A DNA stretch of 43,065 bases from Capnocytophaga sp. (GTDB lineage Bacteria; Bacteroidota; Bacteroidia; Flavobacteriales; Flavobacteriaceae). Below, one piece after another: positions 10,532 to 43,065 of the stretch; the stretch's first letter is position 1; the number at the start of each line of letters is the position of its first letter. Both the position numbers and the translations under genes were made by a program. The stretch spans positions 1 through 43,065 of the forward strand of contig JAUNTM010000011.1 of assembly GCA_030538675.1 (NCBI GenBank), in the 5' to 3' direction. Below the pieces are notes generated by a model that did no database searches, had not been told where the DNA came from, and worked only from the letters and a program-made list of their open reading frames with translations.

Positions 10532-11386
10532 ATGATATATTCGATGACAGGCTATGGTAAGAGCGCTGCACAACTTGCCGACAAACAGGTAACCATTGAG
10601 CTCCGGTCGCTCAACAGCAAAGGAGTGGACATCAACGTGCGTTTGCCTTTGTCTTATCGAGAAAAAGAACTTGAATTTCGCAAGCGGATAGCCGACAAAT
10701 TGCAGCGGGGAAAAATCGACCTTTCGGTAACTATTGAAAACGCAAGCGGACAAACAGTTTCAAAAGTAAATACCGATGCCGTGCGTTCGTATATCGCACA
10801 GCTTCAGCAGATTGTGGACGGAGACCCGGTCGAATTGCTCAAGATGGCGGTACGGATGCCCGACGCGTTGCAAAACGCACCCGATGAGATTCCTGAAGAC
10901 GAATACAAAGACATCTTCCAACATCTCGAATTGGCGCTGGACGATTTGATGACTTTCAGAGCCGAAGAAGGAGCCGTGCTGGAAAAAGATTTCGTACAAC
11001 GGATACAAAACATCGATGTGTTGCTTACCCGGGTACAAAATCTTGATGGCGAGCGACTGCAATGGGTACGCGAACGCCTTGAAAAAGCCGTCGCCGAGAT
11101 ACAAAATCTCGATGCGAATCGCTTTGAGCAAGAACTTATTTTTTACCTTGAAAAACTCGATATTACGGAAGAAAAAATACGGCTGAAAAACCATTTGGAG
11201 TATTTTTTGGCAACGCTCAATTCACAAGAATCCAACGGACGCAAACTCGGATTTATCGCTCAAGAAATAGGGAGGGAAATCAATACGCTCGGTTCAAAAG
11301 CCAATCATTCGGCGATGCAGCAGCTTGTCGTGCAGATGAAAGACGAGCTCGAAAAAATTAAAGAACAAGTGTTAAATATCTTGTAA
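10532..11386 (+). CDS. yicC: YicC-family endoribonuclease
   Basis: This 284-residue protein belongs to the YicC family, reported as endoribonucleases. The N-terminus MIYSMTGYGKS is the family hallmark and sets the start at 10532; a longer frame to 10466 would run through the promoter. VTIELRSLNSKGVDINVRLP and YREKELEFRKRIADKLQRGK follow in the N-terminal domain. The C-terminal domain (DUF1732) has EQELIFYLEKLDITEEKIRL-like sequence, HLEYF, and GRKLGFIAQEIGREINTLGS with KANH. The TAATG overlap with gmk shows translational coupling, and yicC-gmk linkage is common in bacteria. Confidence 0.93.
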   Translation: MIYSMTGYGKSAAQLADKQVTIELRSLNSKGVDINVRLPLSYREKELEFRKRIADKLQRGKIDLSVTIENASGQTVSKVNTDAVRSYIAQLQQIVDGDPVELLKMAVRMPDALQNAPDEIPEDEYKDIFQHLELALDDLMTFRAEEGAVLEKDFVQRIQNIDVLLTRVQNLDGERLQWVRERLEKAVAEIQNLDANRFEQELIFYLEKLDITEEKIRLKNHLEYFLATLNSQESNGRKLGFIAQEIGREINTLGSKANHSAMQQLVVQMKDELEKIKEQVLNIL

Positions 11387-30523: not shown

Positions 30524-31714
30524 ATGAAAAAGTCAGTCTGCCTTTATTTTCAAATACACCACCCCGAACGCCTGAGAAAATACCATTTTTTTGACATCGG
30601 GAAGAAACATAATTATTTTGACAATTACGCCAACCGCTCGGAATTGGAGGATTTGTCGGAAAGTTGTTACCTGCCTGCCAACGCCCTTCTGAAAGAACTT
30701 ATCGAGAAATACGGCGGAAAATTCAAAGTGGCATTTTCGATTTCGGGTTCGGCTATTGACCAGCTGGAAATGCACACGCCGGAGGTTATCCGCAGTTTTC
30801 AGGAATTGGCAAAATCGGATTCGGTGGAGTTTCTTGCCGAAACATATTCGCATTCGCTGGCTTCGCTCTCGGAAGATACGGACGAGTTTGAACAGGAAGT
30901 GAAAAAACATTCGGTGATGATTAAGCGACTATTCGGCAAAAAGCCGGTTACGTTCCGCAATACGTCATTGATTTATTCGGACAGCATCGGCGAACGGGTT
31001 GCCAATCTCGGGTTTAAAACAATATTGACCGAAGGGGCAAAACAGGTTCTGGGCTGGAAAAGTCCGAATTTTGTTTACAAAAATACCATTAACGACAAAC
31101 TTAATATCTTGCTGAAAAACAGCAAATTAAGCGATGATATTTCGATGCGATTTTCGGAGCAGCATTGGGACGAATATCCGCTGACCGCCGAAAAATACGC
31201 CAATTGGATTAAGCACAGCTTGAGCGAAAGCAACGTGGTTAATCTGTTTATGAATTACGACTGCATCGGGTATTACAACCGTGCAGAAAGTGGAATTTTT
31301 GATTTTTTAAGATATTTGCCGCAATATTTGTTGGACGAAGGGATTGAGTTCCTACTTCCGAAAGAAGTCGCTAAAAAGCACAAGCCCGCCGATGTGCTTC
31401 CCGTGCCGTTCCCGATTTCGTGGACGGACGAGGAGCGGGACATTACCTCGTGGCAAGGGAATGAACTGCAACAGGAAGCATTCCGCCAACTGTTTAAAAT
31501 ACAGCCTCTTGTAAAAAGTAAAAAGAAGGATACATTATTACAAGACGATTACAGCCGCCTGCAAGCGAGCGAGCATTTTTTCTATATGCGAACCAAATTA
31601 TTCTCCGATTCGGATTATCATAAATACGTGTCGCCTTACGATTCGCCTTACGAAGCGTTTATCAATTATATGAATATTTTGAGCGATTTCACCGTGCGGT
31701 TGGAGGGGAAATAG
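30524..31714 (+). CDS. GH57-family amylase-like protein, probably lacking catalytic residues
   Basis: This 396-residue protein has the GH57 fold: SVCLYFQIHHPERL at the start, FKVAFSISGSAIDQLE, and FLAETYSHSLASLSED. In the usual nucleophile motif, recalled as FRNTELIY, the sequence is FRNTSLIYSD with Ser148 in place of Glu. In the second catalytic motif, recalled as LFMDYETFGE, it reads LFMNYDCIGYYN, so Asn244 replaces the catalytic Asp. The surrounding GFKTILTEGAKQVLGWKSPN is well kept. The reading frame is intact and overlaps nothing. It may be a glycan-binding or regulatory pseudoenzyme in glycogen metabolism. The start is 2 bases after the glycosyltransferase stop. Confidence 0.85.
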   Translation: MKKSVCLYFQIHHPERLRKYHFFDIGKKHNYFDNYANRSELEDLSESCYLPANALLKELIEKYGGKFKVAFSISGSAIDQLEMHTPEVIRSFQELAKSDSVEFLAETYSHSLASLSEDTDEFEQEVKKHSVMIKRLFGKKPVTFRNTSLIYSDSIGERVANLGFKTILTEGAKQVLGWKSPNFVYKNTINDKLNILLKNSKLSDDISMRFSEQHWDEYPLTAEKYANWIKHSLSESNVVNLFMNYDCIGYYNRAESGIFDFLRYLPQYLLDEGIEFLLPKEVAKKHKPADVLPVPFPISWTDEERDITSWQGNELQQEAFRQLFKIQPLVKSKKKDTLLQDDYSRLQASEHFFYMRTKLFSDSDYHKYVSPYDSPYEAFINYMNILSDFTVRLEGK

Positions 31715-31715
31715 G

Positions 31716-31806
31716 ATTTTGGTCGTCAAATGAATATCTACTTATAAATCACGTATTTTTACACAATATCATAATTGATTTGTAAGTAGATATTCAAATT
31801 TTGGTC
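31716..31806. repeat. Possible MITE: 20-base inverted repeat inside 9-base direct repeats
   Basis: TGAATATCTACTTATAAATC (31731-31750) and GATTTGTAAGTAGATATTCA (31777-31796) are inverted copies with one mismatch. The unit is flanked by direct ATTTTGGTC copies at 31716-31724 and 31798-31806, which could be a 9-base target duplication. No ORF is inside. It lies between the glycogen operon and the tracrRNA. A transcript hairpin ending the glycogen operon is an alternative, although there is no clear T run. Confidence 0.45.
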
Positions 31807-31877
31807 TGTTGCCATGAAATAATTTCAAGAATAGCACTAAGCTATTTTTGTAATGGAGAAAAACAAAGCGTATATTG

Positions 31878-31949
31878 AAAAAAATCCCACGGAGTACGCA
31901 GGATTTAAGATTTTCTTCGGCTTTTAGCCTTATTGTAAATTACTTTCAA
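31878..31949 (-). ncRNA. tracrRNA of a type II-C CRISPR system
   Basis: On the minus strand the transcript would start near 31949. It begins with the anti-repeat ATTGAAAGTAATTTACAA (31950-31933), then ACAATAAGGC, which matches the nexus entry of II-C tracrRNAs such as the Neisseria one. A small hairpin GGCTAAAAGCC follows (31929-31919), then a hairpin AATCC-GCG/CG-GGATT (about 31905-31883) and a run of seven T (31884-31878). That is about 72 bases, within the normal range. The predicted crRNA repeat would begin GTTGTAAATTACTTTCAA. cas9 lies 240 bases away, divergent. Confidence 0.75.
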
Positions 31950-31954
31950 TGTTG

Positions 31955-31962
31955 CAAATGTA
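31955..31962 (-). promoter_or_regulatory. -7 promoter box of the tracrRNA
   Basis: On the minus strand this reads TACATTTG, an exact TAnnTTTG match 5 bases before the proposed transcript start. The upstream part of the promoter is itself repeat-like: GTTGTAAATTA (31980-31970) is the exact complement of the anti-repeat core, giving a 10-base inverted repeat with 31933-31942. Confidence 0.65.
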
Positions 31963-32002
31963 CAAAAAATAATTTACAACTAAAACACCATAATTAAAAA
32001 AT

Positions 32003-32134
32003 ATGGAAAGAAAAGCTAAACCTTTTATAGGTCAGATGGTAACTTCCAAAATCATCATCAATCAGGTTAGAGCTTCTGACTTTTGCTTTTCTGACGAAAA
32101 GATAAAAAATAAATTGTCACATGGTGTTTTATAA
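32003..32134 (+). CDS. Small ORF between tracrRNA and cas9, function unknown
   Basis: An ATG at 32003 opens a 43-codon frame: MERKAKPFIGQMVTSKIIIN, then QVRASDFCFSDEKIKNKLSHGVL and TAA. It is basic and contains no membrane segment. The composition looks like protein rather than noise, and it ends 12 bases before the cas9 -7 box. I see no good promoter of its own; it could be a remnant or a small regulator. I do not recognise it. Confidence 0.35.
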   Translation: MERKAKPFIGQMVTSKIIINQVRASDFCFSDEKIKNKLSHGVL

Positions 32135-32146
32135 ACCTGAATCTTG

Positions 32147-32154
32147 TATTTTTG
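32147..32154 (+). promoter_or_regulatory. -7 promoter box of cas9
   Basis: TATTTTTG fits TAnnTTTG and lies 38 bases upstream of the cas9 ATG at 32193. Confidence 0.6.
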
Positions 32155-32192
32155 TGAAAGTTAAAATTATAAGTAAGCATAAATAACCGATA

Positions 32193-35100
32193 ATGAGAAT
32201 TTTAGGAATTGACCTCGGTACGAACTCTTTAGGAATTGCAGTTCGTGATACTGAAAAAGAAGGAAATCAAATAGAGAATTATAATGTTGTTATCTTTGAT
32301 AAAGGAGTTGCAACTGAGGAAGGAAAAGAATTCCCCAAAGTGCAAAAAAGAACAGAAAGTAGGGGGAAAAGAAGAAATTATCAAGCCGAAAAGTATCGAA
32401 AATATGAGTTGCTAAAATTCTTGATAGAAAAGAAAATGTGCCCTCTTACAAACGAAGAACTTTCCAAATGGAGGGATTATAGGAAAGGAGAAAAGAGGAT
32501 TTATCCGCAGTCGGAGCGGTTTGTTAACTGGCTTCGTTTTGATTTTAATGGAGACGGAAAACCGGATTTTCATTTGTTGGGCAAAGATAAACAAGAGAGC
32601 CATTATGCTTTTAGGGCTTTTGCTGTGGACGAAAATTATAAATTTGTTTTTGATGCTAATCCCGAAATTTTAGGCAGAGTATTTTACCAACTGGTGCAGA
32701 GGCGAGGTTTTCGGGGGCGCGATGAGGAGGAAGCCAAAACTATCTTGAAAGGAAGTGAAAAAACGGGAACCAAAGGGCGTGATGAAATAAGTGATTATAT
32801 AGAAAATCACCCTACATTGGGAGCTGCCTTATATCATTTTCAAAAAGAAAAAGGAGGAAGAATACGCCAGAGATACAATCTAAGAAAAGATTTTGAAAAC
32901 GAATTGAAAGAGATTTGTCGTGTTCATAATATTTCGCAAGAAGATTATTCCAAATTATGGAAATCTTTGATTTGGCAAAGACCTCTTCGTACGCAAAAAG
33001 GGTTAATTGGAAAGTGTATTTATGAGAGAAATAAAAAGAGAGCTCCGATAAGCCATCCGCTTTATGAGGAATACAGAACGTGGGTTTTCATTAACAATCT
33101 GAATATTACACCGCCGTTTCAAGAAGAGTTGATGCCGTATTTGAAAAAAAATATATATCCTCTGTTTTTTAAGACCGCTACTGAATTTGAGCTTAGTGTT
33201 ATCGATAAACAATTGAAAAAAGATGGTGCCAAAAGAAACTCAAAACACCATACTAAAACAAAGGTGGTTTCTGCAAAAATATTAAACTTATTCAAAACAA
33301 TTTATGGTGATCAATGGCGTGCGATTTTGGAATTTGATGATATTTCTAATCGAGATAAAAACACGCCTAAACGTACTGATAGAAAATACACTTCCGAAGA
33401 TTTGTGGCATATCCTACACACCTTTGATGGACGAGAGAATTTAAAAGATTTTGCCTTGAATAATTTACACTTGAATGAGGAGCATTCCGAAAGATTTTCT
33501 AAATTCAAAACATTGCAAGGCTACGCTACTCTCAGCCTTTCCGCCATCAAAAAAATACTGCCTTTTCTTAAAAAAGGCTATTTGTATAGCCATGCTGTTT
33601 ATTTGGCAAATATTCCTAAAGTTATCGGCAGCCCTTCTCTTTCTCATCAGCAAACAGATGATTTGTCGCAAGAAATAGAAAAAATATTGGCTGAAGATAA
33701 AGAAAATATCTTGAAAATAAAGGTTGTTAATGATTTATTGTCAATACAGATAAATGATGAAGAACAACGTTACCAACTTGATGATAATCAAGAGTTAAGC
33801 GATGTGGAGATTAAAGATATCCGCAGTAAGATTGTAGAAACCTACGGCGAAGAAACCTTTACTAATTTTTCACAAGAAAAACAACAAGAAATAGAGCAGT
33901 TTGTTACGACGCATTATGCCGAATTTCTTCGTAAGCCTTTCCCAGCAAGAAGGAATTGTTATTTAAAAAGAGAGCCTATCCACGAGTCTATTTTTGAATT
34001 TTTAAAGAAAAATCACCAACTTTCCGAAGACATGAAAAAACATCTTTGGCATCCGTCGGAACACGAGCAATACGAACAAGCCAAGGATTATTACGAGTAT
34101 TATTATCAAAATAAAAACTATTATGTTCTTCCTGAAAACCAGTCTCATTTTGAAAAAGTAAACCAAGATGCAGAATTTGATGGCCGGATTGTAAAACTAT
34201 TGGGAAGCCCTGAACCGTTGGGTAAAGGACTTAAAAATCCTATGGCTTTGAGATCTCTCCATAAACTGAAAAACGTTATCAATTACTATATAAAAACCAA
34301 TAAAATAGACGAAGATACGAGAGTCGTCGTAGAAATCGCCAGAGAATTGAATGATGCCAACAAAAGAAAAGCTATTGAAACATGGCAAAAAAATAGAGAA
34401 AAAGAAAATGAAGGCTTCAAAAAAATTGTTGATGAAATAAATAAAGAATGTGGTACAAGCTTTAATTCTGAGGATAGAAAAATACTCAATAAAATCCGTC
34501 TTTGGGAAGAACAAGGCAGAAAGTGTATTTATACAGGTAAATCCATAGGATTGTGCGATTTGTTGGATGGTAATAAATATGATTTTGAACACACCATCCC
34601 TGCAAGCATCAGTTTTGATAATGAGCTGAAAAACCTTACCATTGCAGATGCCACGTATAACCGAAAATATAAAGGAAAACGTTTCCCGACGCAGTTACAA
34701 AACTATGATAATGAGTTTGCGTTTGAAGGCGTTATTATGCAACCTATCATTAAAAATATAGAGCAGATTTTTGGTAAAAGAAAAGTTGAAATTATAGAAG
34801 TTAAAGGTAAAAAGAAGGAAATAGTTACTTGGTCGAAAATAGAGGCTTTGGAAAAACAATATGATGATTATAAGAAAAAAGCATCGTATGCAACTACCAA
34901 AGCTATAAAAGATAATTGTATAGTACAATATCATATTTTGAAAATGGATTTGGACTATCTGCGAGCAAAACTCAAGAGTTTTACGATAACAGAATACAAA
35001 TCGGGGTGGAAAAACAGCCAGCTGAGAGATACACAAATTATTACGAAATACGCATTACCATATCTGAAATCCTACTTCAAAAGAGTTTCAGTAGAAAAAG

Positions 35101-35990
35101 CCGAAGTCGTGAATAATTTTAAAGAAATTTATAACGTAAAAGTAACTGCCGATAAAAAAAATCGTAGCAATCATGCCCATCATGCTATGGATGCGGCTAT
35201 TCTTACATTAATTCCTGATACTTTTCATCGGGAAAGAATATTGAAAAAGTTCAATGAACAGAAAGATTTGAACTTTAACTTTACGTATCATGAGCAACCT
35301 CAAGATTGGAGGGATTTTTTGCCAAAATATGTCCTTGATATTGGAGATAATATATTTATAAATAACCTGACCGATGACAGAAGGACAACACAAACCTTTA
35401 AAACCGTTCGTAAACGTGGCAAAATAGTGTATGATATAAATGAAAACGGTCATAAAATAAAAAGGGTAAGTAAAGGAGACACCATACGAGGTGAACTTCA
35501 CGACGAAACTTTTTATGGAGCTATAAAACAACCTATTAGAGATGATGAAGGGAAAATTCTATTTGATGAAAATGGAAAAATGCTACTGCAAGATAAAATA
35601 CACATTGTAGTCCGTAAACCATTATTGTATAAAAAAGACGCCAAATCACCTGGATTCAAATCGCTGGAAGAAATCGAAAAAGTTATTGTGGACAAAGCTC
35701 TTTTCGGAATGATAAAAGCACAGGTGGAAAAATCCGATTTCAAAACAGCTTTGGAAAAAGGAGTTTATTTGATTGATAAAAAAGGACAAAAAGTAGGCGA
35801 AAAGATACGAAAGATACGTTGTTTTAGCTCTCGAAATAAATATGAAAATATTCTAAAAGTCCATACGCACAATTTTACATCCGATAAAGACTATAAAAAG
35901 ATGACATTGGTTACCAATGCAGAAAACGCTTATTTGTCATGTTTCACAACGTTGTTTAATGCAACTGAACGAATGACACGGCAAAAATAG
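32193..35990 (+). CDS. cas9: Cas9 endonuclease, type II-C, probably truncated at the C-terminus
   Basis: The frame encodes 1265 residues. RuvC-I is MRILGIDLGTNSLGIAVRD with Asp7. The arginine-rich bridge helix is about 50-78. RuvC-II is VVVEIARELN with Glu714. HNH has YDFEHTIPASISFDNELKNL with His800 and RKYKGKR following. RuvC-III is NHAHHAMDAAIL with His997 and Asp1000. All nuclease residues are present. Bacteroidota II-C Cas9 proteins are usually around 1350-1500 residues. Here the last 17-19 codons (after NAENAYL) lie inside the IS481 element and run antisense to its transposase end, so the tail is chimeric and part of the PAM-interacting domain is probably missing. No cas1 or cas2 follows. 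Confidence 0.93.
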   Translation: MRILGIDLGTNSLGIAVRDTEKEGNQIENYNVVIFDKGVATEEGKEFPKVQKRTESRGKRRNYQAEKYRKYELLKFLIEKKMCPLTNEELSKWRDYRKGEKRIYPQSERFVNWLRFDFNGDGKPDFHLLGKDKQESHYAFRAFAVDENYKFVFDANPEILGRVFYQLVQRRGFRGRDEEEAKTILKGSEKTGTKGRDEISDYIENHPTLGAALYHFQKEKGGRIRQRYNLRKDFENELKEICRVHNISQEDYSKLWKSLIWQRPLRTQKGLIGKCIYERNKKRAPISHPLYEEYRTWVFINNLNITPPFQEELMPYLKKNIYPLFFKTATEFELSVIDKQLKKDGAKRNSKHHTKTKVVSAKILNLFKTIYGDQWRAILEFDDISNRDKNTPKRTDRKYTSEDLWHILHTFDGRENLKDFALNNLHLNEEHSERFSKFKTLQGYATLSLSAIKKILPFLKKGYLYSHAVYLANIPKVIGSPSLSHQQTDDLSQEIEKILAEDKENILKIKVVNDLLSIQINDEEQRYQLDDNQELSDVEIKDIRSKIVETYGEETFTNFSQEKQQEIEQFVTTHYAEFLRKPFPARRNCYLKREPIHESIFEFLKKNHQLSEDMKKHLWHPSEHEQYEQAKDYYEYYYQNKNYYVLPENQSHFEKVNQDAEFDGRIVKLLGSPEPLGKGLKNPMALRSLHKLKNVINYYIKTNKIDEDTRVVVEIARELNDANKRKAIETWQKNREKENEGFKKIVDEINKECGTSFNSEDRKILNKIRLWEEQGRKCIYTGKSIGLCDLLDGNKYDFEHTIPASISFDNELKNLTIADATYNRKYKGKRFPTQLQNYDNEFAFEGVIMQPIIKNIEQIFGKRKVEIIEVKGKKKEIVTWSKIEALEKQYDDYKKKASYATTKAIKDNCIVQYHILKMDLDYLRAKLKSFTITEYKSGWKNSQLRDTQIITKYALPYLKSYFKRVSVEKAEVVNNFKEIYNVKVTADKKNRSNHAHHAMDAAILTLIPDTFHRERILKKFNEQKDLNFNFTYHEQPQDWRDFLPKYVLDIGDNIFINNLTDDRRTTQTFKTVRKRGKIVYDINENGHKIKRVSKGDTIRGELHDETFYGAIKQPIRDDEGKILFDENGKMLLQDKIHIVVRKPLLYKKDAKSPGFKSLEEIEKVIVDKALFGMIKAQVEKSDFKTALEKGVYLIDKKGQKVGEKIRKIRCFSSRNKYENILKVHTHNFTSDKDYKKMTLVTNAENAYLSCFTTLFNATERMTRQK

Positions 35991-37083
35991 AATAGTTTTT
36001 TGAAATTCCAAAGGTTTTTGAATAAAAATTTCTGGTTTTAATTCATACCATTTTTTAACAGCATCAAAAGGCGTTTTTACACCAAATTCTTTGCGTAGAC
36101 TTCCGTGCCGTCTTTGAAGATTGTAATAAACAAAAAATTTCGTCAATTCACATTTCATATGTTCTACATCTGTAAAATCTATTTTTGCAACTGTATTTGA
36201 TTTGATGATGCCGTTAAGCCTTTCAACCATTCCGTTAGTTTGTGGTTTCCTAGGCAATGTTAAACGATGCTCTATCTCATTAGCCTCGCATTTAATGTCT
36301 AACTTTGATTTTTTAGCACAGGCTTGACCTTTTTTTGACTTTAGGAGCTTATTTGTAAACTCAAGACCATTATCGGTTAAGATATGCGTAATTTTGAACG
36401 GAAAAAAAGACATGCACTTATCAAAAAAATCATCGGTAGAATCCGCAGATTTATTATCATAAACTTGATAGTACATAGTTCGTGTAGCTCTGTCTATTGC
36501 AACAAATAAATAATATTTAACTCCTTGAATTTTAGGGAGATAAGTAACGTCCAAATGAATAAAACCAGGCTCATATTCTTTAAACTTCTTTAGTTTTTCC
36601 CTTTGTTCTTTCGGTTTAGTACTCAAATTGTTACGTTTCAAACAACGATAAACGGTACTTCGCGTAACATTTTCAGCTGAAAACATTTCCGTAATTTCAT
36701 CAAGCGAAAACCAAGAAGAACGGCGGACAGAAATTATTAAATTTTCTTGCAATTGCGTAAGACTATAAGATAAATTTTTAGGACGTGAAGAAACATCATT
36801 TTGAAATGTGCGTTTTTTCCATTTGTGAACGGTCTGGACTGAAACGCCATATCTTTGTGATAGTTTTAGAAAACTTTCTTGAGAGCTCTGTATTTTTGTT
36901 CTTACATGGAAGTTTGTTTTTGCGTTAGCGTGATATGTTTGCATAGTGTTATTTGTTGGTTAAATTTTTGCTAACAAATAACGTACCAAAGGGAAAAAAA
37001 AGAAATAAGAAAATAAGTAATTCAGTTTTTCAGTACGCAGAAAAAAAAAGAAATAAGAAAATAGAGTTTTTAAGGTTGGGACA
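35936..37083 (-). mobile_element. IS481-family insertion sequence, about 1.15 kb
   Basis: The element holds one DDE transposase. Its proposed left end is TGTC (35936) or TGTTTCACAAC (35940-35950). The right end, read inward on the minus strand from 37083, is TGTCCCAACCTT. TGT ends are usual in IS481, and the two ends share TGT...CAAC. A 22-base AT-rich unit is repeated near the right end (36994-37015 and 37042-37063). No target duplication is seen: TTATTT borders the left end and ATAGAAA the right. This suggests that a neighbouring segment was deleted. Exact ends are uncertain by a few bases. Confidence 0.75.
35937..36944 (-). CDS. IS481-family transposase
   Basis: This 335-residue protein has an N-terminal helix-turn-helix (about 22-45, with LSQRYGVSVQTVHKWKKR) and a second helical unit (about 60-108). 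The DDE catalytic core has Asp132 (FIHLDVTYLPKIQG), Asp191 (ILTDNGLEFTN) and Glu241 (NGMVERLNGIIKS). FFVYYNLQRRHGSL is the typical C-terminal block. It looks intact and possibly active. Its stop codon at 35937 is at or just beyond the element end and overlaps the cas9 3' end by 54 bases on the opposite strand. Confidence 0.9.
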   Translation of the reverse strand: MQTYHANAKTNFHVRTKIQSSQESFLKLSQRYGVSVQTVHKWKKRTFQNDVSSRPKNLSYSLTQLQENLIISVRRSSWFSLDEITEMFSAENVTRSTVYRCLKRNNLSTKPKEQREKLKKFKEYEPGFIHLDVTYLPKIQGVKYYLFVAIDRATRTMYYQVYDNKSADSTDDFFDKCMSFFPFKITHILTDNGLEFTNKLLKSKKGQACAKKSKLDIKCEANEIEHRLTLPRKPQTNGMVERLNGIIKSNTVAKIDFTDVEHMKCELTKFFVYYNLQRRHGSLRKEFGVKTPFDAVKKWYELKPEIFIQKPLEFQKTILFLPCHSFSCIKQRCET

Positions 37084-37093
37084 ATAGAAAACA

Positions 37094-37128
37094 AAAAAAA
37101 GCCTTACCAATTACGATAAGACTTTTTT
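37094..37128 (-). terminator. Terminator of the accessory minus-strand operon
   Basis: On the minus strand, AAAAAAGTCTTA pairs with TAAGGCTTTTTT (one G-U wobble) around a 10-base loop. It sits 27 bases after the last accessory gene and only a few bases from the IS end, so it is native to the accessory block. Confidence 0.8.
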
Positions 37129-37154
37129 AAATAAAAATTAAATAAAACTTAAAA

Positions 37155-37529
37155 TTATATATAAAACTCCTCTATGATTTCACGAGTAGAACAGTCGTAA
37201 ACTCGCACTCGGTCAAAAACTTTTCCTTTTTGAATACACCAATCAATAGCATAATGTACATTGTCGACACTTTGCAAGTGGAACACTCTATTATTATCTA
37301 AGTACAATGTTATCGAATAGGGCGAATTATTATGTTTATAATACTGATTTTGAAATGTTTGCACAGTACCGCCGTTTCTTCTGTCAAATATGGCGTAAGC
37401 ATCAAATTTTATATTTTTAGCCGTTACCCAACGAATGGCACTATCTGTATTATGCACATAATGCAAGTATAAGACTCGATTGCCTTGATAGAAAAAAGAC
37501 ATACTAAAATCATTTTTTTTGCCTTTCAT
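37155..37529 (-). CDS. Protein of two internal 43-residue repeats, function unknown
   Basis: This 124-residue protein is made of two related units. Residues 17-59 begin NRVLYLHYVHNTDSAIRWVT and end near GGTVQTF. Residues 80-122 begin NRVFHLQSVDNVHYAIDWCI and end REIIEEF. The shared pattern is NRV, aromatic or His, V-N, AI-W, K, FD, D and a final hydrophobic-E/Q-F. Each unit probably forms a beta-alpha-beta type module. It has no signal peptide or membrane segment. It starts 20 bases before the end of the preceding gene and is last in the operon. I do not recognise the family. Confidence 0.7.
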   Translation of the reverse strand: MKGKKNDFSMSFFYQGNRVLYLHYVHNTDSAIRWVTAKNIKFDAYAIFDRRNGGTVQTFQNQYYKHNNSPYSITLYLDNNRVFHLQSVDNVHYAIDWCIQKGKVFDRVRVYDCSTREIIEEFYI

Positions 37530-37692
37530 ACCATTTAGCTCTCAATATAATGAATGTTAATATAAATGAAGATATTAACAAAAATATATAAAACAGTCCA
37601 ATAAAAAGCGGATAAAAAAAAATAAAAAAAAGGAAGTAAAGCCAATATTTCCGCTTGGCTTTACCAAACCAAGACAATAATTTTTCTGTCAT
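37510..37692 (-). CDS. 60-residue membrane protein
   Basis: The protein begins MTEKLLSWFGKAKRKYWLYF and has one long or two short hydrophobic spans (about 17-50), ending RAKWYERQKK. The lysine-rich patches at both ends suggest both termini face the cytoplasm. Its ATG overlaps the stop of the annexin-like gene (TAATG), and its end overlaps the next gene by 20 bases. No family recognised. Confidence 0.65.
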   Translation of the reverse strand: MTEKLLSWFGKAKRKYWLYFLFFIFFYPLFIGLFYIFLLISSFILTFIILRAKWYERQKK

Positions 37693-38165
37693 TATAATAT
37701 TTCGTTAAAGATAGGGTTAATAGCGCATAATTTACGGATTTCGGAAGCTTTTAACTCATTTACAAGCCAACCATTCAAGTCCATTTCTACGCCTAATATA
37801 TTTTTTTCCCCGAAGATTGCCGAATATTTTCGATTACCAAATTGATAATGCACAAGGGCGTAATCTTCTTTTGTCAAGTTTGCGAGCTCGGAATAAATAA
37901 CCTCCTCGTCCGTTCCCCAAAACGTGTTCATCGCAACAAACAATTTTTCGGCGATACTGCGGGCTTTCGTAGATGAGATTTTAGCACCTTTAATATTTCC
38001 GATAGGTGTAACGTTACTGACTACATTGGCATTTTGCTCACCGGGACTGCCTGCATTTTTGTACTTTTTCCAAAGTAGCCATAAAATAAAGATGACGAGA
38101 GCTACCCAAATTTCATATTTATATTTCTGATAAAAACCGCCTATTTTTGAAGTATATTTTTTCAT
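37692..38165 (-). CDS. Membrane-anchored annexin-like protein
   Basis: This 157-residue protein has one membrane span (about 16-33, YKYEIWVALVIFILWLLWKK) and a flexible linker. A segment of about 66-110 (KARSIAEKLFVAMNTFWGTD, EEVIYSELANLTKEDYALVH) resembles an annexin repeat, with GTDEEVIYSEL as the hallmark; annexin repeats bind calcium and phospholipid in eukaryotes. Such units also occur in small Bacteroidota mobile elements and phages, as I recall. The ATG overlaps the stop of the 28-residue ORF by one base. A structural or membrane-remodelling role is inference. Confidence 0.65.
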   Translation of the reverse strand: MKKYTSKIGGFYQKYKYEIWVALVIFILWLLWKKYKNAGSPGEQNANVVSNVTPIGNIKGAKISSTKARSIAEKLFVAMNTFWGTDEEVIYSELANLTKEDYALVHYQFGNRKYSAIFGEKNILGVEMDLNGWLVNELKASEIRKLCAINPIFNEIL

Positions 38166-38251
38166 TATTCGTCTTTTTTGTAATTTTTAACTGCATCCGC
38201 AAGCACTGGAAGCAAAAACAACAGCGCTATTATTCTGACAACTATCCACAT
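38165..38251 (-). CDS. 28-residue single-span membrane protein
   Basis: The frame MWIVVRIIALLLFLPVLADA then VKNYKKDE is almost wholly a hydrophobic helix with a charged C-terminus. Its TAA overlaps the ATG of the annexin-like gene as TAATG, and its ATG is 6 bases after the M15 peptidase stop. The tight spacing on both sides supports it as a real gene despite its size. It might be a holin-like or structural membrane peptide. Confidence 0.5.
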   Translation of the reverse strand: MWIVVRIIALLFLLPVLADAVKNYKKDE

Positions 38252-38257
38252 TTTTTT

Positions 38258-38743
38258 TTAGCCTAAATCTTCCCAAGTTGTGATATGTCCACGAATATCG
38301 TAATGCACGAAATTCTTGTACAAGCCAACGCCCCCCTTTGCAATTTTGCCCTCGTTCATGAGGCGTTTAATGGTGTCAAAGACTTTTTTAGGAAGTACGT
38401 TTTTAACTCTTATATCAGCGGCTTTTGCTTCCAAGTGAAGCGACTTTATTGCACCGCCGACATTGAAATTATGCATAAAAGTACGATAGCCAGAGTTTAT
38501 TACTATGGGGTTATTACCTAATTCCGCGCGGATGATTTCCAATTGTTCCGCCAATTTCTGGACATTAGGCTTTAAATCTTCGGGAACTGAAACGCCGTCT
38601 TTGCTGTCAAATTCAGCCCATTTAAAATGTTTGGTTATATTCCCTGCCGTTAACATGCGGACGGCTTTTTTTAGGGGATAATAAAAATACGCCATTACTA
38701 ATATAATTAGAATTAATACTATTGTTACTGTTTTCGCATTCAT
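38258..38743 (-). CDS. Membrane-anchored M15-type peptidase
   Basis: This 161-residue protein has an N-terminal membrane span (about 4-22), then a peptidase M15A-like domain (about 36-155). HFKWAEFDSKD opens the domain. VINSGYRTFMHN, SLHLEAKAADIRV with His103 and Asp110, and FVHYDIRGH with His147 fit the zinc ligands. M15 enzymes cut peptidoglycan peptide stems and serve as lysins in many Bacteroidota phages. The start at 38743 (MNAKTV) is the first ATG; a longer frame would use a rare start inside the terminator region. The 28-residue membrane protein follows immediately. Confidence 0.82.
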   Translation of the reverse strand: MNAKTVTIVLILIILVMAYFYYPLKKAVRMLTAGNITKHFKWAEFDSKDGVSVPEDLKPNVQKLAEQLEIIRAELGNNPIVINSGYRTFMHNFNVGGAIKSLHLEAKAADIRVKNVLPKKVFDTIKRLMNEGKIAKGGVGLYKNFVHYDIRGHITTWEDLG

Positions 38744-38776
38744 TTTTTTTTCTTTCTCGCAAATTTCAAGCAAAAA

Positions 38777-38806
38777 AAAAAGCCCGATTTAATAATCGAA
38801 CTTTTT
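38777..38806 (-). terminator. Terminator between the lipoprotein gene and the M15 peptidase
   Basis: On the minus strand AAAAAGTTCGATT pairs with AATCGGGCTTTTT (two G-U wobbles) and is followed by a long T run. The region 38807-38946 holds a 30-codon open stretch (YESFNEWNTCVDYSFDMLRM...) without ATG start, and nothing else I can name. Confidence 0.75.
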
Positions 38807-38946
38807 CAACAGTTTTTAAAGGATTTTTAAAAGCAAAAACATCTTTTATTAATGTAAACTACAAGTAGCTTGATATGAAATCATTCTAAGCATATCAAAA
38901 GAATAATCTACACAAGTATTCCATTCATTAAAACTCTCATAATAAA

Positions 38947-39258
38947 TTAATTAGGAAATGAAACCAAATGCTCACGTGTAACAGTAAAATTGCCTGTTTG
39001 TTCAGTAGGATAAATTAAGTAACCACTATTTTGTTTAACATACCAAATTATAAATGTACCCTCATCATATTTTCTAATAACATACTCTTTACCTTGAAGA
39101 ACAAAAACCTCTTTATCATCATTAAAATTGATAGTAACAGTATAAGGGCTTGAAGAATTGTTAGAAAATCTAACCTCATGTTTAGTTTTTACATTTAAAT
39201 CATCTTTGGAACAAGAAAATAAAAAGACTGACAGAAAAAGAAACATTAATTTTTTCAT
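38947..39258 (-). CDS. Small lipoprotein, function unknown
   Basis: This 103-residue protein begins MKKLMFLFLSVFLFSCSKDD with a clear lipobox and cysteine 16. The mature part is probably all-beta: EVRFSNNSSSPYTVTINFND and KEVFVLQGKEYVIRKYDEGT are alternating strands. It has its own -7 box (39286-39293) and a following terminator, so it is a one-gene unit inside the cluster. Perhaps it is a cargo gene such as an immunity or superinfection-exclusion lipoprotein; this is a guess. Confidence 0.72.
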   Translation of the reverse strand: MKKLMFLFLSVFLFSCSKDDLNVKTKHEVRFSNNSSSPYTVTINFNDDKEVFVLQGKEYVIRKYDEGTFIIWYVKQNSGYLIYPTEQTGNFTVTREHLVSFPN

Positions 39259-39285
39259 TACGATTTAATTTATTTGGTTAAAACG

Positions 39286-39293
39286 CAAAGTTA
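39286..39293 (-). promoter_or_regulatory. -7 promoter box of the small lipoprotein gene
   Basis: Plus-strand CAAAGTTA reads TAACTTTG on the minus strand, an exact TAnnTTTG match 27 bases upstream of the ATG at 39258. It overlaps the end of the 88-residue gene by one or a few bases downstream of that gene. Confidence 0.55.
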
Positions 39294-39297
39294 AAAA

Positions 39298-39564
39298 TTA
39301 TTTTCTATTAACAAAACAATCCCCTGTTAAAAACAAAAATAAAAGAAAAAAAGGAACTGAAATTATCAAATAGTACAACGAAAGCAAAAATAAATCTGAA
39401 ATCATTCTTTTGTTAAAAGCCGAAACCGAAGTATTATATAAATTACTTCTATTTATATCAATCATATAATCTATATATTCCTGGCGTTGCTTCTTAGCTT
39501 TAGAATCGGACGTAAGTAAGCCAACAGTAAAACTTGCCCAAGACATTACAAAATTAAAAACCAT
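39298..39564 (-). CDS. 88-residue membrane protein
   Basis: The protein starts MVFNFVMSWASFTVGLLTSD, has a charged middle (SKAKKQRQEYIDYMIDINRS) and ends with a strong span (about 55-80, SDLFLLSLYYLIISVPFFLL). One or two membrane segments are likely. It begins 4 bases after the preceding small gene's stop. No family recognised. Confidence 0.6.
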   Translation of the reverse strand: MVFNFVMSWASFTVGLLTSDSKAKKQRQEYIDYMIDINRSNLYNTSVSAFNKRMISDLFLLSLYYLIISVPFFLLFLFLTGDCFVNRK

Positions 39565-39568
39565 ATCA

Positions 39569-39736
39569 TTAACGTTTAATTGAATATTCTAAATTAGCTC
39601 TAAAACTTGACAAAGCACCGTTATAAATTTTATCCAAAGTATCTTTTGTGTAATACAATGAAATTTTAGAATATGCATAAAGGAATACAATAATCAAGTA
39701 ACACAATACAAACAATATATAATAACGCTTTTTCAT
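39569..39736 (-). CDS. 55-residue single-span membrane protein
   Basis: The frame MKKRYYILFVLCYLIIVFLY, AYSKISLYYTKDTLDKIYNG, ALSSFRANLEYSIKR has an N-terminal membrane anchor and a polar tail. Its ATG overlaps the stop of the 54-residue gene as ATGA, and the next gene starts 4 bases after its stop. The overlap supports it as real. Confidence 0.55.
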   Translation of the reverse strand: MKKRYYILFVLCYLIIVFLYAYSKISLYYTKDTLDKIYNGALSSFRANLEYSIKR

Positions 39737-39897
39737 TTTTCCAAAATACTTTTAGACGACAAGCCCTCAATAATTCTATAAAGAGAATCGTAGAGATAAA
39801 CAGATGAAGCCGAACGCATTAATAAATATTGCTCATAATATTTTTTTATCTGTAAAGACAAAATAAACGCTAATGGTATCAAGTAATATTTTTGCAT
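39733..39897 (-). CDS. 54-residue small protein with hydrophobic N-terminus
   Basis: The frame MQKYYLIPLAFILSLQIKKY, YEQYLLMRSASSVYLYDSLY, RIIEGLSSKSILEK has a short hydrophobic start and a polar helix. Its end overlaps the 55-residue gene by 4 bases (ATGA). The ATG is one base after the upstream 28-codon gene's stop. Shape is like its neighbour: membrane anchor plus polar tail. Confidence 0.5.
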   Translation of the reverse strand: MQKYYLIPLAFILSLQIKKYYEQYLLMRSASSVYLYDSLYRIIEGLSSKSILEK

Positions 39898-39898
39898 A

Positions 39899-39985
39899 TC
39901 AAAGTAATTTAACGCCTTTGTCTTTAGAAAATAAAATAAAGGCTAAAATCAAAAATCCAATTATTAAAAAATCCAAATAATCCAT
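39899..39985 (-). CDS. 28-residue single-span membrane protein
   Basis: The frame MDYLDFLIIGFLILAFILFS then KDKGVKLL is one membrane helix with a basic end. Its ATG directly abuts the TAA of the 250-residue gene, and the next gene begins one base after its stop. Tight packing is the main support. Confidence 0.45.
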   Translation of the reverse strand: MDYLDFLIIGFLILAFILFSKDKGVKLL

Positions 39986-40738
39986 TTAGTTGTAAAATTT
40001 ATTGTTGTCAGTAACGATTAATTTAAGTAATGAAGTAAATTCATCTAATTTAGTTTTATCTTTAAAATACACTACAGCTCTCAAATTATGACTTATATAA
40101 TCTAAAGAAAAACCAAACTGCCCGACATTTCTATCAACAAAATTAGCGTCATATATAACAACATAATTACCAACAATTCTATATCTTACATGCTTTAAGT
40201 CAGCAACTAAAGACATATTTTTTTCTAAATAGGTTTTAAACTGGAGAGAAGAACCGCCACCGAAAAGAAATTCCGCTAAATTAAAAAATGATACGCCATC
40301 ATTCATATGTTTAGTAGAATCTTTGAAAATGCCATTAACAAAAAACTCATATTTCACAGTTAAAGACGAAAATAAAGAATTAACACGTTTGTTAAAGTCA
40401 TTTTTCTGGAAATCAGCAATTTTAAAAGGGAGCAAAGAACCAAAAACATTATTAATTCTGTCACGATAAATGGAAAAATCAAAATCCAACTTCTTAAGTT
40501 CCTTAAAATCGAGTTCAGCTAACAAAGCTTGCGTTTCAACGATTTGGACGTATTCAGAAGTTTTTAAATGACCGTCATAAACTCTAATCAAGACATCAAA
40601 ATAATCTTTAGAATAAACTTGCTCGGGCTTTTCTTTTGACTTAAAGAACCAAAGAAAAAGAACAAGTAAAATTACAATCACTAAAATTATTATCTTATTA
40701 CGCCGTTTCTTTCTCTCTTTTAACTCTCTATCATTCAT
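39986..40738 (-). CDS. Membrane-anchored protein, third member of a tandem family
   Basis: This 250-residue protein has a lysine/arginine-rich start (MNDRELKERKKRRNK), one membrane span (about 16-33) and a soluble domain of about 210 residues. Its C-terminal block LRAVVYFKDKTKLDEFTSLL matches the ends of the two upstream proteins (RSVVFRDKAKGLAFYQKVKE and RSFVFKDKNKGIEFNNKLVS). It is the most divergent of the three. The soluble domain probably lies outside the inner membrane. No known family recognised. Confidence 0.7.
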   Translation of the reverse strand: MNDRELKERKKRRNKIIILVIVILLVLFLWFFKSKEKPEQVYSKDYFDVLIRVYDGHLKTSEYVQIVETQALLAELDFKELKKLDFDFSIYRDRINNVFGSLLPFKIADFQKNDFNKRVNSLFSSLTVKYEFFVNGIFKDSTKHMNDGVSFFNLAEFLFGGGSSLQFKTYLEKNMSLVADLKHVRYRIVGNYVVIYDANFVDRNVGQFGFSLDYISHNLRAVVYFKDKTKLDEFTSLLKLIVTDNNKFYN

Positions 40739-40742
40739 AGTT

Positions 40743-40847
40743 TTAATCTTTTTTAGTTTGAAAAAATATCACAAGCCCCAAGATGACAACCGCCACAATG
40801 CGGAATATTTTATCGTATAATTTCTCTCTGTTTACTTTGTTTTTCAT
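40743..40847 (-). CDS. 34-residue single-span membrane protein
   Basis: The frame MKNKVNREKLYDKIFRIVAV, VILGLVIFFQTKKD has a basic N-terminus and one span. It lies between two members of the three-paralog family, 4 bases from the next gene and 14 from the previous one. Small size keeps confidence moderate. Confidence 0.45.
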   Translation of the reverse strand: MKNKVNREKLYDKIFRIVAVVILGLVIFFQTKKD

Positions 40848-40861
40848 AGTTATTTTTTTAA

Positions 40862-41608
40862 TTAAGAGGGTTTAGCCGTGTTATAATCAACAAGAGACAC
40901 TAATTTATTATTAAATTCAATACCTTTATTTTTATCTTTAAAAACAAAAGACCTAGCATAAGATAAAACAAAAGGATTTTGTGAAGTATCAACATAAAAA
41001 ATATTAGAAACAGGGTAATTATTCACATAACCACCAAAGCAAAGAATATTTTTAGGAGAAAAAATAAAAACATCATCTAAATAAACAACATCCGAATAAG
41101 AAAAAGATACATTTTCAAAATACCTACGTTCTAAAAATACATCCCTATTAGCAAGCATTTTATGAGCATAACAAAAAACATTCTTTCCATGAATATACGA
41201 ATTAAATAAATCAGAAACAGAACCAAAATCTATATCACGAACTTTATAAACAGGAAAAACAGGCTTTAAACTTCCATAAGATTTAACTATGAAATCATAT
41301 TCAGGAAGAAGAGTCTTACCTTCATACCAAGTATTATATATAATAACATCAACATCACTATTATTAAATTCATGAGAAAAAGTAGGTATATCAAAAGGAA
41401 AACTAAACAGAACATTCTCTATTTCTGTTTCCTCTGTTTCCGTTTCCTCTGTTTCCGATTCTACAAAATAAACTGTAGAATCACAAGCACGACCGTAATT
41501 TTTCAAATAATCATCTGCCGTCATATCAAAATTTTCGGGTTTTTCACCGAAATACTTCGCATAAGAGAGCAAAAAAACCAATAAAAACAAAAATACCATA
41601 ACCACCAT
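40862..41608 (-). CDS. Membrane-anchored protein, second member of a tandem family
   Basis: This 248-residue protein has an N-terminal membrane span (VVMVFLFLLVFLLSYAKYFG), a Glu/Thr run (SETEETETEETEIE, about 50-63) and a soluble domain. DVIIYNTWYEGKTLLPEYDF and FNSYIHGKNVFCYAHK match the upstream paralog (DFIIYDVWYNDK and EYISGKNALYYGLR), and the end RSFVFKDKNKGIEF matches too. The ATG at 41608 lies one base after the upstream stop (TAATATG); a longer frame would need a TTG. The E/T codon run comes from short tandem DNA repeats (41410-41460). Confidence 0.7.
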   Translation of the reverse strand: MVVMVFLFLLVFLLSYAKYFGEKPENFDMTADDYLKNYGRACDSTVYFVESETEETETEETEIENVLFSFPFDIPTFSHEFNNSDVDVIIYNTWYEGKTLLPEYDFIVKSYGSLKPVFPVYKVRDIDFGSVSDLFNSYIHGKNVFCYAHKMLANRDVFLERRYFENVSFSYSDVVYLDDVFIFSPKNILCFGGYVNNYPVSNIFYVDTSQNPFVLSYARSFVFKDKNKGIEFNNKLVSLVDYNTAKPS

Positions 41609-41609
41609 A

Positions 41610-42353
41610 TTACACAATTTTATAGTCTAACAATTCCTTTACTTTTTGATAAAACGCCAAGCCTTTGGCTTTATCACGGAAAACGACAGAACGATTTATA
41701 CCAATAGCGTGGGGATTTCTGTAAGTTTGAACAAAGAAAAAAGAAACCAAATAATAACCGTCAATTTCCGCACCTTTTACAGTTTGATTTGTTGATGAAA
41801 CCAAGGCAGTTGAAAAAGCGATATTAGAAACATTAACGTAAATCGCACCATTAGAGTAGTTTGAAGAAACATTTTGTTCATACTTTCTGCCTAATGACGA
41901 CTGTGTTTTTTCGGGATTATCATATCTCAAACCGTAATACAAAGCATTTTTTCCCGAAATGTATTCATTAGCCAACGCTTTCATGTCTTCAACGAGAAAA
42001 CCGTCACGGAGCTTTGCCAACGGTTCGGTAAGGACGTAACCGCCAAAGGCTCTTTTTATAAATTCATATTCTGGCTCGGTAACATGAATTTTGTCATTAT
42101 ACCAAACATCGTAAATTATAAAATCAGCGTTTGTGCTTTTAAAATCTTCCGAAAAAGACGGCACGACAGAAGCGCCTGACAAAGGCGAATTATCGGGCAT
42201 TGTTTCGGGCTTACTTTCTGTTTTATTTTCGTTTTTTTTCTTTCCGAAAAAAGTAAAATAAAACAAAAGCAACAATAATATAATTATCGTAACTCTGTAA
42301 AACATTCGGGGTTTGTCAAAATTGCCCTTTTTTATTTCGTTTATTTCTTCCAT
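41610..42353 (-). CDS. Membrane-anchored protein, first member of a tandem family
   Basis: This 247-residue protein begins MEEINEIKKGNFDKPRMFYR, has one span (about 21-38, VTIIILLLLLFYFTFFG), a polar linker rich in Lys, Glu and Pro, and a soluble domain. The start at 42353 is chosen because a longer frame to 42416 would use TTG and read through the terminator hairpin at 42372-42402. The domain has FIIYDVWYND, YEFIKRAFGG, NEYISGKNALYYG and ends RSVVFRDKAKGLAF. One base separates it from the next paralog. No known family recognised. Confidence 0.72.
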   Translation of the reverse strand: MEEINEIKKGNFDKPRMFYRVTIIILLLLLFYFTFFGKKKNENKTESKPETMPDNSPLSGASVVPSFSEDFKSTNADFIIYDVWYNDKIHVTEPEYEFIKRAFGGYVLTEPLAKLRDGFLVEDMKALANEYISGKNALYYGLRYDNPEKTQSSLGRKYEQNVSSNYSNGAIYVNVSNIAFSTALVSSTNQTVKGAEIDGYYLVSFFFVQTYRNPHAIGINRSVVFRDKAKGLAFYQKVKELLDYKIV

Positions 42354-42365
42354 TTTAAAATTAAA

Positions 42366-42402
42366 TTTAAAAAATCCGTACCGCAAAAAACGATACGGAT
42401 TT
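42366..42402 (-). terminator. Terminator upstream of the three-paralog genes
   Basis: AAATCCGTA (42372-42380) and TACGGATTT (42394-42402) are perfect 9-base arms. On the minus strand the hairpin ends in six T. It separates the two genes on its right from the long run of genes on its left, and may only partly stop transcription. Confidence 0.75.
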
Positions 42403-42427
42403 CCACTAACCAACAAATTAAAAAAAA

Positions 42428-42559
42428 CTAATCAACCTTACGACCAACAGTACCGTCGCCGTTCAAATCACGCTTAACAAGCGTCTCCAAAATCGGCATA
42501 ATTACCGTTACAATGTCTTGCAGGACTTTAAAAATCGTGTATACTTTCGTTACATTCAT
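42428..42559 (-). CDS. 43-residue protein with an EF-hand-like acidic loop
   Basis: The frame MNVTKVYTIFKVLQDIVTVI, MPILETLVKRDLNGDGTVGR, KVD has an amphipathic or weakly hydrophobic helix and then DLNGDGTVG, which matches the core of calcium-binding EF-hand or dockerin loops. It lies 28 bases after the 155-residue gene and ends 26 bases before a terminator. Calcium binding is inference from nine residues. Confidence 0.5.
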   Translation of the reverse strand: MNVTKVYTIFKVLQDIVTVIMPILETLVKRDLNGDGTVGRKVD

Positions 42560-42587
42560 ATCGCTATATTATTTAATTGATTACTAA

Positions 42588-43055
42588 TTAACGTCTGCCG
42601 TTATTATTTTGACGTGACCAAAAACCAGCATAACCACCGTTATTGGCTTTTGTCGAAATAACAATCCCAGTTTTAGGCAATAAGACTTTACCCGTGTTAA
42701 TGTTGAATTGAGCGATTTCCAAAAATTTAGAACCTGTATCACGGTAAAAAACCTCGAACAACAACGAAATAAAATTATTTCCGTTTTTTTCGCCTGTATA
42801 GCGTTTTGACCTTGAATTTTCAAACGCCGAAATGGTTACCAAGCCTGTGCGTCGTCTATAAAACCAAGCCGTAACGCCGTAATACATAACGCCGTCTTTT
42901 GTGTTTCCTTGCACTACTTTAGCCCCAGAACGTTTTTTTGAAGCAGAGGCTTGACCTCCATATCGATTTTGCTGGGGAAAAGAACCGCCTTGATTTTGAG
43001 GGTAGTAACCACCTTGATTTTGCGGAAAATAACCGCCTGAATTATTATTTCTCAT
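42588..43055 (-). CDS. Protein with Gln/Gly/Tyr-rich N-terminal repeats, function unknown
   Basis: This 155-residue protein begins MRNNNSGGYFPQNQGGYYPQ with about three copies of an F/Y-PQ-NQGG unit (residues 9-35). A basic, probably all-beta domain follows (SKKRSGAKVVQGNTKDGVMY, then YGVTAWFYRRRTGLVTISAF and FISLLFEVFYRDTGSKF). It ends NNGRR. Basic beta proteins with disordered tails are seen among single-stranded DNA-binding and phage structural proteins, but I cannot assign either. It is the first gene of the block in view; the operon probably continues beyond the right edge. Confidence 0.65.
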   Translation of the reverse strand: MRNNNSGGYFPQNQGGYYPQNQGGSFPQQNRYGGQASASKKRSGAKVVQGNTKDGVMYYGVTAWFYRRRTGLVTISAFENSRSKRYTGEKNGNNFISLLFEVFYRDTGSKFLEIAQFNINTGKVLLPKTGIVISTKANNGGYAGFWSRQNNNGRR

Positions 43056-43065
43056 AATTATCTAC

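Follow-up and report, generated by a model that had tools for sequence, protein, structure and literature searches.

Related systems and overview of the locus

In lysogens of the Mu-like phage DMS3, transposition of the phage deleted the CRISPR (clustered regularly interspaced short palindromic repeats) region in seven laboratory-evolved isolates of Pseudomonas aeruginosa PA14, as described in PMC11406979. A related situation was found in contig JAUNTM010000011.1 of a Capnocytophaga sp. (here C96), which was analysed over its entire length of 43065 nucleotides (nt), called the window below. The window ends at 43065 inside an inserted element, and the assembly comprises 179 contigs and is 89% complete. 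A truncated type II-C cas9 gene, a transposon-type terminal repeat at the junction and virus-related genes beyond it lie in the window; a second contig of the assembly, C136, carries a CRISPR array with a cas2 remnant, and eight spacers of this array match the element. We regard it as probable that a provirus long targeted by the array integrated into cas9 and removed the end on the side of the protospacer-adjacent motif (PAM), so that it survives self-targeting. The target and the inactivating lesion would then be one insertion, the element that breaks cas9 being the one remembered by the array. This supports, in a genome from outside such evolution experiments, the idea that targeted temperate viruses drive the loss of CRISPR immunity.

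The locus resembles the DMS3 lysogens of PA14 in that a transposing phage to which the host has a spacer would have disabled the CRISPR locus through transposition, with the self-targeted lysogen remaining alive. There, a Mu-like phage, a deleted CRISPR region and one imperfect spacer are reported; whereas in the window a type II-C cas9 contains a portion of a small provirus from a different lineage, and eight spacers match it. Unlike in Mu-like transposable phages, the transposase is IS481-like, and a scan of ten element proteins gave no tail protein below E 0.01.

The Cellulophaga phages that have the matching structural protein form the family Obscuriviridae, according to PMC12451628 and PMC11946311. 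The members compared were phi18:4, phi12:2, phi12a:1, phi48:1 and Omtje. As in these small tailless single-stranded DNA (ssDNA) flavophages, the element has a 155-amino-acid (aa) family homologous to phi18:4 gp6, followed by small, lytic and membrane-type proteins. The known members are 6.5-kb phages, with no integrase or transposase annotated in phi18:4 or Omtje_1; whereas the window element has an M15 peptidase, extra proteins of 247-250 aa and a transposase. Like insertion sequences (ISs) of the IS481 family, it has a DDE transposase and a TG-tipped terminal repeat beside the stop codon. Unlike them, it lacks a right terminal repeat at the position seen in relatives, and at least 6 kb of virus-related genes are found instead. 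The host locus is similar to the type II-C loci of genomes G257 and G144, with a trans-activating CRISPR RNA (tracrRNA) gene divergent upstream of cas9, a cas9 about 56% identical, and cas2 convergent with the array; it differs from both in that the C-terminus of Cas9 is cut by the insert and cas1 was not found in the assembly. Literature searches covering cas loss and the insertion of prophages or ISs into cas9 brought up no description of a provirus of this kind in the gene, which does not prove its absence; nothing pertinent was found on IS481 with ssDNA phages or on Finnlakeviridae proviruses.

The truncated cas9 and the element end

The features at the junction are as follows.

32147..32154 (+): TANNTTTG box upstream of cas9, presumably a Bacteroidota-type -7 box
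32193..35990 (+): truncated type II-C cas9 frame, 1265 aa, native up to about 35934, final ~17 codons from the insert
35935..35956 (+): left terminal repeat at the cas9 junction, from the terminal-repeat matrix
35937..36944 (-): IS481-like DDE transposase, 335 aa, intact frame, DDE residues present
37048..37164 (no strand): where the right terminal repeat would be expected from relatives, which have it 104-220 bp upstream of the start codon; none here

The window Cas9 scored 315 bits with TIGR01865 (cut-off 100), and 40 of the 299 genomes of the host family that were searched, its own genome included, had a match. The closest relatives are the proteins of G257 (1421 aa) and G144 (1420 aa), with 55-56% identity. 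Homology to the relatives is lost after about residue 1246, where the IS481-like terminal repeat starts (35935). The alignment used 10 of the 11 long relatives fetched, the frame of L165 (G021) being left out as not recovered; all ten full-length proteins extend 155-230 residues past the end of homology, and compared with G257 and G144 the window Cas9 is short by about 160-170 residues. The shorter and more distant Cas9 proteins of the family (roughly 1120-1195 aa) match only piecewise and were excluded from this alignment. A preliminary description of the window had already proposed that the C-terminal part is missing, which the alignment bears out; it had named a normal family end at about residue 1245 as a counter-argument, but the long relatives continue beyond that point, and the truncation is real.

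The same description placed the end of the cas9 frame 54 bases inside the antisense transposase frame, its last residues being encoded by the insert, and the two frames confirm this as one uninterrupted reading frame. No frameshift is present inside the 3.7 kb of cas9. Residues D7, E714, H800, H997 and D1000 are all intact, as had been stated, and lie in the contexts of RuvC-I, RuvC-II, RuvC-III and HNH. The PAM-interacting domain usually sits in the C-terminus of Cas9, according to PMC10309648, and a dead or altered product is likely to follow from the loss of the PAM-side end. A PDB search with a profile of the Cas9 C-terminus gave no match among solved structures; a search of the GTDB contigs with the single window Cas9 also gave no result. 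A Cas9 relative with an in-frame TGA (G036:C3 240585-241061, near L017) is possibly another broken cas9.

The breakpoint at 35935 is a genuine transposon end, and it coincides with the tip of the terminal repeat. The left end scored 23.7 bits with the right-end matrix and 31.2 bits with the combined matrix (training minima 22.3 and 20.7), and the second-ranking site of the window, at 10795, reached 16.9 and 13.6 bits, a level that chance sites can attain. With up to 2 mismatches allowed, the core motif of the repeat has one site in the genome, and the insert DNA is single-copy except for one 30-bp match, which is a spacer of C136. The best model for the transposase was IS481 NF033577 (211 bits, 13 below the curated cut-off of 224). 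Related transposases were collected from 58 loci in GTDB genomes. In a free inverted-repeat search given 29 of these loci, of which 3 had too little flank, TTTCA was present in both arms of the best inverted repeat in 23 of the 26 assessed. A pattern search of 28 loci allowing up to 3 substitutions found the left end in all 28 and the right end in 27, at 104-220 bp upstream of the start codon; the one locus without a right end (L114) has a flank of only 154 bp. In the window, the best right-orientated score was -8.9 bits in 36945-37250 (training minimum 22.3), and the maximum on the right-end matrix was 1.7 bits across 36945-43065, and no right end was found up to the end of the contig. Since the right terminal repeat is absent where the relatives carry one, the element is not a stand-alone IS. 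The preliminary description had called it an IS481 element ending at 37083; the transposase is IS481-like and a left repeat is present, while the proposed end and the plain-IS nature do not hold.

Spacers matching the element

The C136 array (L056 15137-18570) is built of 45 copies of an identical 47-nt repeat, and its 44 spacers comprise 43 distinct sequences. Eight of the 44 spacers match the element at 0-3 mismatches, all within 36312-42859.

36312..36341 (-): protospacer of spacer 27, exact, within the transposase gene
37631..37660 (+): protospacer of spacer 4, exact
37881..37910 (+): protospacer of spacer 5, exact
37883-37912: protospacer of spacer 32, 2 mismatches, overlapping the spacer 5 site
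38103..38132 (+): protospacer of spacer 31, 1 mismatch
38518..38546 (+): protospacer of spacer 12, 3 mismatches
42678..42707 (+): protospacer of spacer 39, exact
42830..42859 (+): protospacer of spacer 35, 3 mismatches

No spacer site at up to 6 mismatches was found in the chromosomal and cas9 part (1-35934) among the matches listed, which were the two best sites per strand. The closest approach of the reversed-spacer control was 10 mismatches, and the spacers had no match at up to 6 mismatches in 1.45 Mb of other, partly overlapping loci.

The 3' flanks of the protospacers have C at +5 in seven of the eight sites, C at +6 in six and A at +8 in six. Among 20,000 sets of eight element sites drawn at random, none had C at +5 in seven. 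The chance of a column with seven of eight at any of ten positions was 0.00015 for G or C and 0.063 for any base. The exact protospacers in the cas9-breaking element keep a common flanking base. The common flank suggests that the spacers were selected by a working Cas9, which would have been before the insertion, and the PAM of this Cas9 group might be N4C, often N4CCAA. Spacers 5 and 32, two bases apart and with variant letters, suggest that one site was recorded from variant viruses in repeated encounters. The exact match of spacer 27 among the virus spacers indicates that the transposase gene was on an invader when this spacer was acquired.

Spacers 15 and 19 of the array are identical. Each repeat holds a TANNTTTG box, as though every repeat had its own promoter. 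A degenerate partial repeat was seen by eye at L056 15081-15112, directly before the first full repeat on the side of a ricT-like gene. A 30-bp, 90% match in G311 was considered as a spacer and rejected, the surrounding stretch being without such repeats.

Virus-related genes of the element

The element is at least 7.1 kb long and carries virus genes. The frames taken as genes beyond the transposase are all on the minus strand, and several of the proteins are small and of membrane type.

37155..37529 (-): 124-aa element protein, open frame
37510..37692 (-): 60-aa hydrophobic element protein, open frame
37692..38165 (-): 157-aa protein, homologues in the small viruses of G337 and G164 (E 6.6e-7 and 1.2e-8)
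38258..38743 (-): M15 peptidase of endolysin type (PF08291 2.1e-20; phrog_894 1.3e-25)
38947..39258 (-): 103-aa lipoprotein-like element protein, open frame
39986..40738 (-): 250-aa element protein, no PHROGs match
40862..41608 (-): 248-aa element protein, no PHROGs match
41610..42353 (-): 247-aa element protein, no match in PHROGs or the phage collection
42588..43055 (-): 155-aa virion structural protein homologue (phrog_20522, Obscuriviridae, E 1.7e-4)

Homologues of the 155-aa protein were found in three other genomes (G125, G164 and G337) among 397 genomes of the family. The 155-aa and 157-aa homologues occur in the same order in an integrated stretch of G337 (L097) and in an 8,491-bp contig of G164 (L098), and both virus stretches also encode replication initiators. 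The G164 homologue of the 155-aa protein is 47-50% identical to structural proteins in 11 Cellulophaga phage records, and a profile of the four-sequence 155-aa family matched phi18:4 gp6 at 99.1% (hhalign). By these sequence comparisons, the element is assigned to a provirus related to Obscuriviridae, of which the window holds a part. The replication and capsid genes of the element should be located beyond 43065. The GC content is 43% in the chromosomal part (1-31714), 34% in cas9, 33% in the transposase and 31% in the element genes.

Kinship with FLiP (Finnlakeviridae) was rejected: a comparison of the 14 element proteins with the FLiP frames brought up no match at E<=0.01, and the 157-aa family reached 0.1% when aligned by hhalign to one FLiP protein. 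IMG/VR had no match for the 157-aa protein, the transposase (single sequence and alignment), the structural-protein alignment or one protospacer pattern; the capsid candidate of G337 had no match in the phage collection. The neighbouring 248-aa and 247-aa proteins (window 40862-42353), both without a PHROGs match, appear by eye to be similar to each other. L098 (G164:C8, 8491 bp) and L097 4453-11597 (G337) appear to be further small Obscuriviridae-like genomes, the former on its own contig and the latter apparently integrated.

The transposase as a possible integrase

A small Obscuriviridae-like virus lineage may have captured an IS481-like transposase as its integrase, so that the virus genome would be a transposon composed of a left repeat, the transposase, virus genes and a far repeat; we put this forward tentatively, with a substantial chance that falls short of an even one. 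A circular transposition intermediate would perhaps double as the circular viral genome. If this is true, integration of low specificity permits escape from a hostile CRISPR system by landing in cas9, and the locus points to an IS-type transposase as the integrating enzyme of tiny flavophages, a group that has no annotated integrase. The role of the transposase is plausible but unproven. It supplies the end that recombined with cas9, the near right end is missing, and a transposase-derived spacer sits among the virus spacers. On the other side, the tested transposase relatives are stand-alone ISs, and neither G337 nor G164 encodes a homologue of the window transposase in its related virus stretch.

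These last observations also fit a different history, in which cas9 was hit by an ordinary IS481-like element and virus DNA was joined later by a separate event that removed the right end, the transposase being irrelevant to virus integration. For example, in G398, a genome of the same family, the transposase (53% identical) belongs to a stand-alone IS that has a terminal repeat at either end and a 6-bp target repeat read by eye, and at E<=0.001 the 58 transposase loci yielded no homologue of any other element protein. However, spacer 27 would place the transposase on the invader, an extra event is needed to lose just the right end and join the virus genes, and the element is single-copy. The two-step history is therefore possible but doubtful. 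Fifteen of the 58 transposase loci are from one Sulfurospirillum metagenome-assembled genome (L119, L120, L122, L123, L125-L131, L137, L139, L145 and L150), which indicates that this IS family is present in another phylum and can be multicopy.

A CRISPR locus split over two contigs

The tracrRNA-like gene lies upstream of cas9 in the window.

31840..31985 (-): tracrRNA-like gene, anti-repeat at 31933-31949, hairpin and T-run towards 31862

The anti-repeat is identical over 17 nt (31933-31949) to the repeat of the C136 array. At -25.9, the energy of the repeat/anti-repeat duplex was lower than for any of 200 letter-shuffled repeats (lowest -22.4), and the tracrRNA block is conserved upstream of cas9 in G257 and G144. 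C136 terminates in an open frame of 86 codons that matches Cas2 (TIGR01573, 44.9 bits, cut-off 24.5). Its 3' end adjoins the array and is convergent with it, an arrangement also found in G257 and G144. The 17-nt identity and the cas2 end facing the array indicate that the C136 array belongs to the window cas9. The anti-repeat, the Cas2 frame and the conserved order together suggest one locus, tracrRNA-cas9-cas1-cas2 facing the array, split between C96 and C136. A single assembly gap would hold the end of cas9, cas1, the start of cas2 and the far end of the element.

The preliminary description had proposed that an IS-driven deletion removed cas1, cas2 and the array, which is contradicted by the array and the cas2 3' end on C136, in the order of the two relatives. 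It is true of the window that no cas1, cas2 or repeats lie beyond the insert. The broader claim that a mobile element disables cas9 is upheld as far as the cut 3' end and its likely consequence are concerned, while the deletion mechanism is unsupported. A smaller deletion, driven by the IS or the provirus, might still have taken the cas9 end, cas1 and the first cas2 codons: these parts, the cas2 start among them, were not found in the assembly, C136 stops about 28 codons into cas2 as judged against G257, and transposing phages make such deletions (PMC11406979). However, both contigs simply end, one assembly gap suffices, and the array and the cas2 3' end survive. A deletion is thus possible yet unneeded, and we consider it unlikely. 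In G257, a 198-aa frame lies between cas9 and cas1 (L057 11193-11789) and is similar to REP-associated (Y1) transposases.

Survival of the self-targeted lysogen

The probable history may be reconstructed as follows. The C136 array would already have held spacers against the virus lineage, four of them exact, before the insertion. An Obscuriviridae-related provirus, bounded on one side by the IS481-like terminal repeat, would then have integrated near cas9 codon 1248. The integration would have taken the final ~160-170 residues of Cas9, the PAM-side end, and left the tracrRNA, the array and at least the cas2 3' end in place. Given exact spacers and intact flanks, an active Cas9 would be expected to cut the chromosome at the provirus, and an insertion that removes PAM reading is the simplest route to survival. 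The insertion itself most likely inactivated Cas9 interference, leaving the self-targeted lysogen alive, and the truncated Cas9 would be inactive. Self-targeting may have selected the insertion into cas9. Loss of cas function and anti-CRISPRs are both reviewed as escapes from self-targeting in PMC6990116.

Several points weigh against the integration of a targeted provirus as the cause of survival. The nuclease residues, the tracrRNA and the promoter-like box are all retained, and the loss of Cas9 function is something that we infer. The lost cas9 3' end was not found in the assembly in a search that had no positive control, nor was cas1 anywhere in the 89%-complete assembly (the control of that search was detected in 9 of 14 genomes); a draft of this kind leaves room for a deletion that extends into cas2. 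A single element end is visible, the contig stops inside the element, and no contig overlapping the window end was found. Capsid genes were not found, and the replication initiator PF02486 was not found in the genome, with a control detected in 1 of 14 genomes. The phage link of the 155-aa protein comes through the G164 relative and the profiles; the window protein alone had no tblastn match in the phage collection, and the 157-aa family reached only 20% probability with phi18:4 gp9. Because the protospacers of spacers 5 and 32 share bases, the eight flanks are not entirely independent observations. Moreover, an anti-CRISPR in the element would equally explain tolerance.

Under that last explanation, the truncated Cas9 still interferes or was never relevant, and the provirus is tolerated through an element-encoded anti-CRISPR. 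Several element proteins have no known relatives, and prophage anti-CRISPRs are a known escape according to PMC6990116; however, a simpler cause is visible in the lost PAM-side end, and this alternative is quite unlikely. A PADLOC scan of five element proteins gave no match, which is neutral. An artefact of assembly or binning, with the 35935 junction or the assignment of C136 being wrong, might be suspected in a draft assembly where the cas9 end is absent. It is very unlikely, because the join lies exactly at the tip of the transposon end of a single-copy element, the tracrRNA and the C136 repeat agree over 17 nt, and spacers on C136 match C96. A new role of the truncated Cas9, such as guided binding without cutting or altered targeting, would fit the retained nuclease residues, tracrRNA and upstream box and the absence of an internal frameshift in 3.7 kb, but the same is expected of a recent knock-out, and without the PAM-side end DNA binding should be impaired, which makes it the least credible explanation.

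Neighbouring sequences

The amylase-like gene of the window and the ricT-like gene were considered as ancestral neighbours of the CRISPR locus; this was rejected, a search of 25 loci having given no ricT hit; among these loci, G300, G303 and G315 are the only ones that extend about 10 kb downstream of the amylase-like gene. An Rfam scan of 31500-38500 gave no result. Between the amylase-like gene and the tracrRNA, the window also has an inverted repeat (31731-31796) with 26-nt arms (88% complementary) and a 14-nt loop, which might be a terminator or a small mobile repeat.

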